Source: Parahaliea maris (GTDB lineage Bacteria > Pseudomonadota > Gammaproteobacteria > Pseudomonadales > Halieaceae). From it: a stretch of DNA of 64,000 bases. The notes beneath the pieces were generated by a model. The model made no database searches. It saw only the letters and a program-made list of their open reading frames with translations, and was not told the origin of the DNA. The first letter of the stretch is position 1, and each line of letters starts with the position of its first letter. Location of the stretch: NCBI RefSeq assembly GCF_008064665.1, contig NZ_VRZA01000002.1:806001-870000 (forward strand), given 5' to 3'. The position numbers were made by a program, and so were the translations under genes. This document shows, piece by piece, positions 31,745 to 33,962 of the stretch.

Positions 31745-32320
31745 ATGGTCACCATCACCGAATCTGCCCAGGACTACCTCGCCGAGCTGCTCTCCAAGCA
31801 GGAAGACGCCCTCGGCGTCAGGGTTTTCATCAACCAGCCCGGCACCCCCCGGGCGGAAACCTGCATTGCCTACTGCCGTGACGGCGATGTGGAGGAGGGT
31901 GACGAACAGCACCCCTTCGAGAAGTTCACTGCCTGGTTCGACGGCCGCAGCCTGCCCTACCTGGAAGATGCCCTGGTGGACTACGCCAAGGACCGCATGG
32001 GCGGCCAGCTCACGATCAAGGCCCCCAACGCGAAGCTGCCTCGTGTCGACGAGAACAGTCCCCTCGAGGACCGCATCAATTATGTGCTGTACAACGAGGT
32101 GAACCCGGCTCTGGCAGCCCACGGTGGTGAGGTGAGCCTGGTGGAGGTCACTGAGGACAATTACGCGATCCTGAAATTCGGCGGTGGCTGCCAGGGTTGT
32201 GGCATGGTGGACCAGACGTTGAAAGGCGGTGTCGAGAAGACGCTGCTGGAGCAGTTGCCGATGCTGGCGGGTGTGCGGGATATGACCGACCACACTGATC
32301 GGTCGAACGCGTATATGTGA
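31745..32320 (+). CDS. nfuA: Fe-S biogenesis protein NfuA
   Basis: A 191-residue iron-sulfur carrier with a degenerate A-type (IscA-like) N-terminal domain of about 95 residues and a C-terminal Nfu domain. The cluster-binding C-x2-C is in [19 protein letters not shown]. It delivers 4Fe-4S clusters to targets such as aconitase, especially under oxidative or iron stress. Length and both domains match E. coli NfuA. It is a stand-alone gene, convergent with DAHP synthase across a 568-bp gap that carries structured repeats. Confidence 0.95.
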
Positions 32321-32418: not shown

Positions 32419-32548
32419 AGTGGCGGCTTGGAATGCCGGTGGCCCTTCCGCGAACCGCCAAAAAGCAGACGTCCATGTCAGGCTTCTATGCGCACATCCA
32501 TGTGCGCATAGATTCGCTACAGGGCCACCGACATTCCAACCCTTCAGT
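32419..32548 (+). repeat. Structured repeat copy 1 (cloverleaf-like, about 130 bp)
   Basis: Nested pairings are visible. An outer 19-bp arm runs 32428-32446 with 32521-32539 (one mismatch). A 5-bp inner stem GCGAA (32450-32454) pairs with TTCGC (32513-32517). A short hairpin is GACGT/ATGTC (32468-32479) with AAGC/GCTT outside it. A perfect 12-bp hairpin CTATGCGCACAT/ATGTGCGCATAG spans 32486-32511. The 41-base segment 32447-32487 matches the inverse of 32743-32783 at 38 positions. GTGGCGGCT and CCAASCCTTC mark the outer edges in both copies. Confidence 0.85.
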
Positions 32549-32682
32549 TCCGCCTGAGACGATATTCCCGGCCACCGGGCAAACCCGTTAGCAACTTGTT
32601 TGTCTCTACAAAACGCTCTGGGCTGTTCGCCGCGCAGATTTCCTGATTCGAGGGGGAGGTGGGCCGGGCTTAATAGCCAGGT

Positions 32683-32811
32683 CCGAAGGCTTGGTGCCCC
32701 GATAGTCCCGGAGCAAATCTAGGCGTCCATGGACGGACGCCTAGAAGCCTGACATGGATGTCCGCTTTTTGGCGGTTTGCGGAGGGACTATCGGGGCAGC
32801 GAGCCGCCACC
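32683..32811 (-). repeat. Structured repeat copy 2, inverted relative to copy 1
   Basis: It has the same architecture with changed bases. The outer perfect 15-bp arm TGCCCCGATAGTCCC (32695-32709) pairs with 32784-32798. The inner stem GCAAA (32713-32717) pairs with TTTGC (32776-32780). A perfect 11-bp hairpin TCTAGGCGTCC/GGACGCCTAGA spans 32718-32745, and GACAT/ATGTC forms the short hairpin. Outer arm and main hairpin differ from copy 1 in sequence yet remain paired, and GCAAA/TTTGC against GCGAA/TTCGC is a compensatory pair. Confidence 0.85.
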
Positions 32812-32888: not shown

Positions 32889-33962
32889 CTAGGAATTACG
32901 CCCCGGCAACACGTCCTTCAACTTCGCCCGCATATCCCGCAGCGTATTCGCCGTCGTATCCCAGTCAATACAGCCATCGGTTACCGACACACCGTATTCC
33001 AGGTCTGCCAGGTTCTCCGGGATCGACTGGTTGCCCGCCTTCAGATTGCTCTCGATCATCAGGCCGACAATAGAGCGGTTGCCCTCCAGAATCTGGTGAG
33101 TCACATCCTCGACCACCAGCGGCTGCAGTTCAGGCTGCTTGTTCGAGTTGGCGTGAGAGCAGTCCACCATGATATTGCGCGGCAGCTTTGCCTTCTCCAG
33201 CGCATCCTCACACAACTTGATGTGCACCGAATCGTAGTTCGGGCCGGCGCTGCCGCCGCGCAGGACCACGTGGCCGTAGCGGTTGCCCTTGGTGGTGTAC
33301 ACCGACACCTGGCCCTCGTGGTTGATGCCGAGGAAGCGGTGAGGCTTGGCCGCAGAGTTGAGGGCATTGGTGGCCACGGTCAGGCCGCCGTCGGTGCCAT
33401 TTTTGAAGCCGACGGCGCAGGACAGGCCGCTGGCCATCTCGCGGTGGGTCTGGGATTCAGTGGTGCGGGCGCCGATGGCGGACCAGCTGATCGCGTCCTG
33501 CAGGTATTGCGGGGAGATCGGGTCCAGGGCCTCGGTGGAGGTCGGCAGCCCCAGTTCCAGGATGTCCAGCAACAGCTTGCGGCCGATTTGCAGCCCTTCC
33601 TCGATTTTGAAGGAGTCGTCGAGGTAGGGGTCGTTGATCAGGCCCTTCCAACCAACCGTGGTGCGCGGCTTCTCGAAGTACACCCGCATCACGATATACA
33701 GGGTATCAGACAGCTCTTCCGTCAGTTCCCGCAGGCGGCGGGCATAGTCCATGGCCGCTTCGGTGTCGTGGATGGAGCAGGGGCCCACCACCACGAACAG
33801 GCGCGGGTCCTTGCGATCGAGAATATCCCAGATAGCCTGGCGGCTGCTGGTGACGGTGTCGTGGGCGTTGTCACTGAGCGGCAGGGAATTCTTCAGCTGC
33901 TCCGGCGTGACCAGCACATCCTGGGATGCGACATTGATATTGTGTACGGCCGTATTGCTCAT
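32889..33962 (-). CDS. aroG: 3-deoxy-7-phosphoheptulonate synthase (class I DAHP synthase)
   Basis: A 357-residue class I AroFGH-type enzyme that condenses phosphoenolpyruvate with erythrose-4-phosphate in the first step of aromatic amino-acid synthesis. Diagnostic stretches are VVGPCSIHDTEAAMDYA, YFEKPRTTVGWKGLINDP, IGARTTESQTHREMASGLS, VGFKNGTDG and MVDCSHANSNK, which carry the metal ligands and substrate arginines/lysines. Feedback specificity (Phe, Tyr or Trp) cannot be assigned from sequence alone, so the symbol is by family. It is convergent with nfuA and divergent from the nuclease-helicase pair. Confidence 0.93.
   Translation of the reverse strand: MSNTAVHNINVASQDVLVTPEQLKNSLPLSDNAHDTVTSSRQAIWDILDRKDPRLFVVVGPCSIHDTEAAMDYARRLRELTEELSDTLYIVMRVYFEKPRTTVGWKGLINDPYLDDSFKIEEGLQIGRKLLLDILELGLPTSTEALDPISPQYLQDAISWSAIGARTTESQTHREMASGLSCAVGFKNGTDGGLTVATNALNSAAKPHRFLGINHEGQVSVYTTKGNRYGHVVLRGGSAGPNYDSVHIKLCEDALEKAKLPRNIMVDCSHANSNKQPELQPLVVEDVTHQILEGNRSIVGLMIESNLKAGNQSIPENLADLEYGVSVTDGCIDWDTTANTLRDMRAKLKDVLPGRNS

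Follow-up and report, generated by a model that had tools for sequence, protein, structure and literature searches.

The inverted pair of elements between nfuA and a DAHP synthase gene of Parahaliea maris is one of dozens in this genome, and the element appears to be a mobile RNA repeat of 3′-intergenic regions, a branch of the YPAL/TwoAYGGAY kind that is paired and has diverged, with transcription and CsrA binding predicted. The conclusion draws on observations of how many copies there are, how they pair and covary, the strand polarity of the long outer stem (P1), the conserved loops, the genomic position, and a kinship with YPAL/RU-2 in sequence and with TwoAYGGAY in shape. A whole chain of action running from read-through transcription through CsrA binding to an effect on host mRNA would build on these, and we put its probability at roughly 0.5.

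The window, the whole stretch of 64,000 nt that was analysed, carries the pair in the gap between nfuA (31745–32320, plus strand) and a convergent gene (32889–33962, minus strand). The preliminary description had placed two inverted copies there, as we find, and had called the right-hand gene aroG; it is indeed a convergent DAHP synthase gene, which we assign to the aroFGH family. The left element, W1 (32425–32542), has its RNA strand on minus and consists of P1, an inner stem, the P4 hairpin and the P3 hairpin; the right element, W2 (32688–32805), has its RNA strand on plus. Each scores 112.8 bits with our covariance model (contig positions 838433–838534 and 838696–838797). They lie within an inverted repeat (32420–32545 and 32685–32810) that is 75% complementary across 126 nt. 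The 41-base conserved cores (32448–32488, minus, in W1; 32742–32782, plus, in W2) differ at 3 positions when one is reversed, by our by-eye count, the same number as first reported. On the minus strand, the P4 hairpin of W1 (32485–32512) has the loop AUGGAU (32496–32501) and its P3 hairpin (32468–32479) the loop AUGGAC (32471–32476). On the plus strand of W2 the two loops are exchanged, with AUGGAC (32729–32734) in P4 (32718–32745) and AUGGAU (32754–32759) in P3 (32751–32762). Arms pair in each copy despite their sequence divergence between copies, and the inner stems read GCGAA/TTCGC and GCAAA/TTTGC, both as originally noticed. The pair is far from chance: with up to three mismatches allowed, the window has two instances of the core pattern and 100 shuffles have none, and folding of W1 and W2, on either strand, gives z scores of −9.3 to −10.6 against 200 shuffles.

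Further copies were found by BLAST, as the preliminary description had proposed to check. A search with the left copy returned another inverted pair as well as two matches that stood alone, at loci that each proved to hold a pair. A covariance model built from eight elements and searched over 59 loci of the genome gave 107 matches; three were opposite-strand readings, leaving 104 copies in the fetched loci, so the two in the window are not the only ones that exist. Neither this abundance nor the structure-bearing strand had been recognised at first. A scan of the contigs with a 15-base pattern, which hit at least 119 stretches, was set aside as too short; among the stretches fetched, every one from outside this genome had at least 4 mismatches to a 25-base core.

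The 104 copies form 43 pairs and 18 singles, the latter a class in which a diverged partner could have escaped detection. Order is invariant in this genome: minus precedes plus in 43 of 43 cases of two copies within 600 bp. Different subtypes, by a pattern-based label, are joined in 33 of the 43 pairs, and the A/B kind of pair stands in one orientation eight times and in the other eight times, which fits a pair moving as a unit. Left of the pair at locus L008, a fragment of a third copy was seen by eye. The minus–plus polarity sets the 5′ ends face to face, and with two GGA hairpins in each element it brings to mind two CsrB/RsmZ-like small RNAs transcribed divergently from promoters within the spacer. 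This we consider very unlikely: the spacers, which run from 79 to 250 bp and cluster near 83, have no motif common to all of them by eye, a scan of the window spacer (32543–32687, no strand assigned) found no sigma-70-like promoter, and by eye no U-tract follows the stem.

Covariation in the family is strong. In an alignment of 123 sequences taken from our genome and others, which was fitted to the model and so leans towards the structure, 93.8% of cells are paired versus 56.6% in shuffles, double changes number 1336 versus 367.5, and sliding the partners abolishes the signal. A MAFFT alignment of eight sequences has the same covariation, the structure having been drawn from those eight. One shuffle control (a) did not separate pairs changed on both sides (213 of 500 shuffles reached the observed value) and separated further pair types weakly (38 of 500); the other three measures were reached by 0 of 500. 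The selection on structure that had been read from two copies is thus borne out by the covariance model and the covariation.

The strand on which the structure is selected can be read from the G-U and A-C oppositions. In P1 they stand at 77 to 2, and a count from the ends gives a similar outer-stem bias whichever strand a copy lies on (36 to 0, 40 to 2). Beyond the model, P1 gives 103 to 24 if the stop rule counts Watson-Crick pairs only, and 156 to 98 if it counts G-U and A-C both as pairs; the ratio in other genomes is 73 to 12. P4 has 31 to 10. The short P3 helix runs against the trend, with 2 G-U versus 20 A-C cells, which we attribute to the helix being uneven in length and poorly aligned by column. 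The excess of G-U on one strand of P1 marks the strand with the AUGGAY loops as the selected folding strand, and the simplest reading is that it acts as RNA. G-T is tolerated in single-stranded DNA also, so strand bias alone would admit a single-stranded DNA reading. RNA is favoured because of the CsrA-type loops and the Rfam match described below; with these, and with no match to the Y1 transposase (Y1_Tnp, RAYT) in the genome, the folded single-stranded DNA transposition substrate considered in the preliminary description is not supported.

Stem partners also change together between this genome (G000) and a relative (G002). In nine element comparisons at five loci, taken over all predicted pairs, 36 two-sided changes kept pairing, against 40 one-sided changes (18 kept, 22 lost) and 7 two-sided changes that lost it. 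Joint change of this sort would suit DNA-level palindromes kept perfect by template switching, with no RNA function. By our reasoning, template switching should yield G-T and A-C equally, and the 77 to 2 of P1 has already weakened this explanation to the point where we give it hardly any credence.

The loops of the selected strand are nearly fixed. Two GGA hairpins (ANGGAN or a pentaloop) are present in 91 of the 104 copies, one in 10 and none in 3; the corresponding numbers for 116 distinct copies from other genomes are 101, 12 and 3. On the opposite strand of the 104 copies there are 0 such sites. The closing pair is C-G at 192 of 192 loop sites in this genome and at 207 of 214 in others, and the second loop base (N2) takes all four identities among 180 hexaloops (T 161, G 11, A 5, C 3). 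The ANGGAN rule requires the A, so its conservation is not an independent result; AUGGAU and AUGGAC are still the top loops with a looser finder that drops this requirement. As predicted sites, C-ANGGAN-G hairpins in twos (91 of 104 copies) agree with the published CsrA/RsmA/RsmE consensus, RUACARGGAUGU and (A/U)CANGGANG(U/A) (PMC6692469, in part). The genome has one csrA match. Elsewhere csrA is present also in genomes without element matches, and one draft genome (G026) has 12 element matches and no csrA match.

The elements are concentrated downstream of genes. With genes called by a simple codon-usage caller, the 43 pairs occupy 22 convergent gaps, 20 codirectional gaps and 1 divergent gap; among the 28 gaps longer than 40 bp in the window, the same classes number 5, 15 and 8. 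Single copies are oriented with the upstream gene in 9 of 18 cases, the chance level. By eye, a terminator is kept between gene and element at secF (locus L010) and at nfuA of G002, which would limit read-through. Location 3′ of genes and long stable stems, together with the suggestion in a review that YPAL/RU-2 might act on the stability of upstream transcripts (PMC2229807, in part), could be accounted for by a mobile 3′-UTR stabiliser and nothing more, a long stem blocking 3′ exonucleases without any role for CsrA, its GGA loops serving another protein or the spread of the element. We think this unlikely, though it deserves to be kept in mind; it leaves unexplained the near-fixation of loop and closing pair beside freely varying stems, and the freedom of N2, as in the CsrA consensus.

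Comparison with relatives at the same sites, another check proposed at the outset, found the nfuA site empty in a genome of the same genus (G001), where the gap is ∼100 bp, and occupied by one element in G002. Copy numbers are one in G001, 104 in G000 and at least 67 in G002 (69 candidates scored). At five of seven fetched G002 loci the G000 counterpart is occupied too. G000 and G002 differ at the meaB locus (L136, L224) in where a short P3 insertion is found: G000 has it in its left element, G002 in its right one. This placement suggests that one half of a pair can convert the other.

In a search of relatives, 33 of 58 genomes (own included) have matches at E ≤1, one of them only at 0.003. 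At E ≤1e-6, matches occur in 67 of 369 genomes sampled from the class and in 30 of 398 from the phylum (own included in both); every positive of the phylum search belongs to the same class or order, the share of the 398 lying outside the class being not shown. Matches per genome are lower bounds throughout, with 69 candidates scored in the relatives search and, for the class and the phylum, 10–11 in each genome. The minus–plus pair is not universal, since L284 holds minus, minus, plus. Other arrangements were also seen: in G027, alternating elements repeated in tandem about every 350 bp (L185, L238, L250, L256; G027:C5:732066-733406), and six minus copies in a row, ∼230 bp apart, at G598:C1:94422-95646, unlike the divergent pairs of our genome.

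One genome, G305 (L274–L282), has the element as the middle of a very abundant 165-bp MITE, which carries the same RNA core as the element of P. maris. The MITE end motif (≤2 mismatches) has 170 matches on one strand and 154 on the other, and its reversed control has 0; of eight fetched copies tried, six could be parsed, and by eye each of these has a duplication of 9 bp or a little longer. A MITE-like mobile repeat and a structured RNA had been offered as alternatives; the element appears to be both. In G092 (L287, L288) the same core was seen by eye between perfect terminal repeats CTAAATACGTGTTCCGAAT, unlike the G305 ends, and no duplication was seen by eye at these two loci. A match in G305 (L276, 1014–1116, minus) to the DUF3800-IV RNA scores 33.7 bits versus a cut-off of 60.7; we take it as shared shape.

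Abundance, the A/B pair in both orientations (8 and 8) and the G305 element within a MITE with duplications of ∼9 bp would be expected of a selfish repeat that transposes as a folded single strand, DNA or RNA, its loops being read by a transposase encoded elsewhere. We hold this to be quite unlikely. There is no Y1_Tnp match in our genome; the repeat ends in G305 are external to the element and unlike the G092 ends, so that the core there is cargo and does not form the ends; and the five of seven G002 loci occupied in G000 too indicate that turnover is not fast.

We return to the reading with which we began, a small mobile repeat in dozens of copies that lands mostly 3′ of genes. Each half would specify an RNA of ∼100–120 nt, a long stem of free sequence opening on two C-ANGGAY-G hairpins. 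The element RNA would be made by read-through from neighbouring genes; one CsrA/RsmA dimer would be bound at both its sites by the two hairpins, and docking would both titrate CsrA and change how stable the host mRNA is or how it is used. With divergent pairing, transcripts arriving from left or right would each include a sense copy. Against this we count that Ysr224 models the opposite strand, that the spacer has no promoter, that singles are gene-oriented in 9 of 18 cases, that terminators stand at some loci, that the csrA distribution is mismatched, that the P3 bias is reversed and that the pair rule fails in L284 and G598.

In a bolder reading, a mobile repeat family may spread CsrA/RsmA docking sites through gammaproteobacterial genomes, about a hundred copies with some two hundred sites in 3′ regions forming a genome-wide, transcription-dependent CsrA sponge, and YPAL, TwoAYGGAY and Ysr224 may be one RNA superfamily; we advance this tentatively, at somewhat less than even odds. 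Three things described separately, a mobile repeat and an annotated sRNA of Yersinia and an Rfam RNA whose function is unproven, would then belong to one RNA-bearing mobile superfamily across Gammaproteobacteria. Joining YPAL/RU-2, TwoAYGGAY and Ysr224 is the useful part, the G-U bias points to the working strand, and the family offers a way to ask directly whether CsrA sites are seeded genome-wide by mobile DNA.

No family was found when the window was searched at the Rfam gathering thresholds. MicroRNA matches were far under cut-off and were taken as long-stem artefacts. BIME/REPIN repeats have a paired arrangement, and our elements are likened to them and to ERIC repeats as intergenic palindromes, by description and not by sequence; RAYT-mobilised REP/REPIN differ in that our genome has no Y1_Tnp match. 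CsrB, RsmY and RsmZ share the multiple GGA hairpins with our elements, but are genes with their own promoters, whereas ours are dispersed repeats. ERIC repeats are described as intergenic palindromes (PMC2229807, in part), and the CsrB/RsmY/RsmZ sRNAs as carrying several CsrA-binding GGA hairpins (PMC4333381, in part).

TwoAYGGAY (RF01731) was the only Rfam family above cut-off in an E-value search of sample loci. It is listed from human gut, gamma-Proteobacteria and Clostridiales (PMC2864571, in part) and has been proposed to bind CsrA, from motif matches (PMC4333381, in part). The likeness is in a long outer stem and two AYGGAY-loop hairpins in the same order, the window loops being AUGGAU and AUGGAC; the Rfam model differs in its longer second hairpin, and in the portions of the literature consulted it is not described as a dispersed repeat. 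One copy at L134 scores 44.5 bits, and in our genome at least two copies exceed the 43-bit cut-off and 11 have E ≤0.01 (39 of 174 candidates scored). The window copies, at 34.3 and 32.1 bits, are under it, which counts against identity, and for this reason we regard the set as a new paired variant and not as members of TwoAYGGAY.

The link to the Yersinia repeats came from weak matches to Ysr224, on the antisense strand, in genomes other than ours. The Ysr224 (RF02770) consensus reads as this core in antisense when aligned with G330 (L264); it differs in modelling the opposite strand, scores 30.8 bits versus a cut-off of 70, and has no match reported at the window pair. It is listed as a temperature-responsive Yersinia sRNA (PMC9029176, in part), so a transcript of the opposite strand has been reported.

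The RU-2/YPAL sequence is printed in PMC2759123 (in part), and our family profile, window copies included, matches this one printed RU-2 sequence at E 1.7e-9, versus 0.91 for the best of 2000 mononucleotide shuffles. The Yersinia palindromic sequence, of 168 bp, has the core and both GGA hairpins in the same order, and holds AGCCTACATGGATGTATTTACGGCG, close to the form of some copies in our genome. It is described as a single element, whereas ours come in divergent pairs; its outer arms are other, and the P3 linker of the window subtype differs. Its published target duplications are 3–26 bp (PMC2229807, in part), and none was made out by eye at the element ends in our genome. A literature search, mostly of papers outside subscription, found none that mention YPAL together with CsrA or with TwoAYGGAY. 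Published accounts give YPAL/RU-2 as intergenic, multi-copy and mobile, and our element is multi-copy, intergenic and present or absent between relatives. The family that the preliminary description had not recognised is thus related to both known types, in sequence to YPAL/RU-2, which it also works like, and in shape to TwoAYGGAY.
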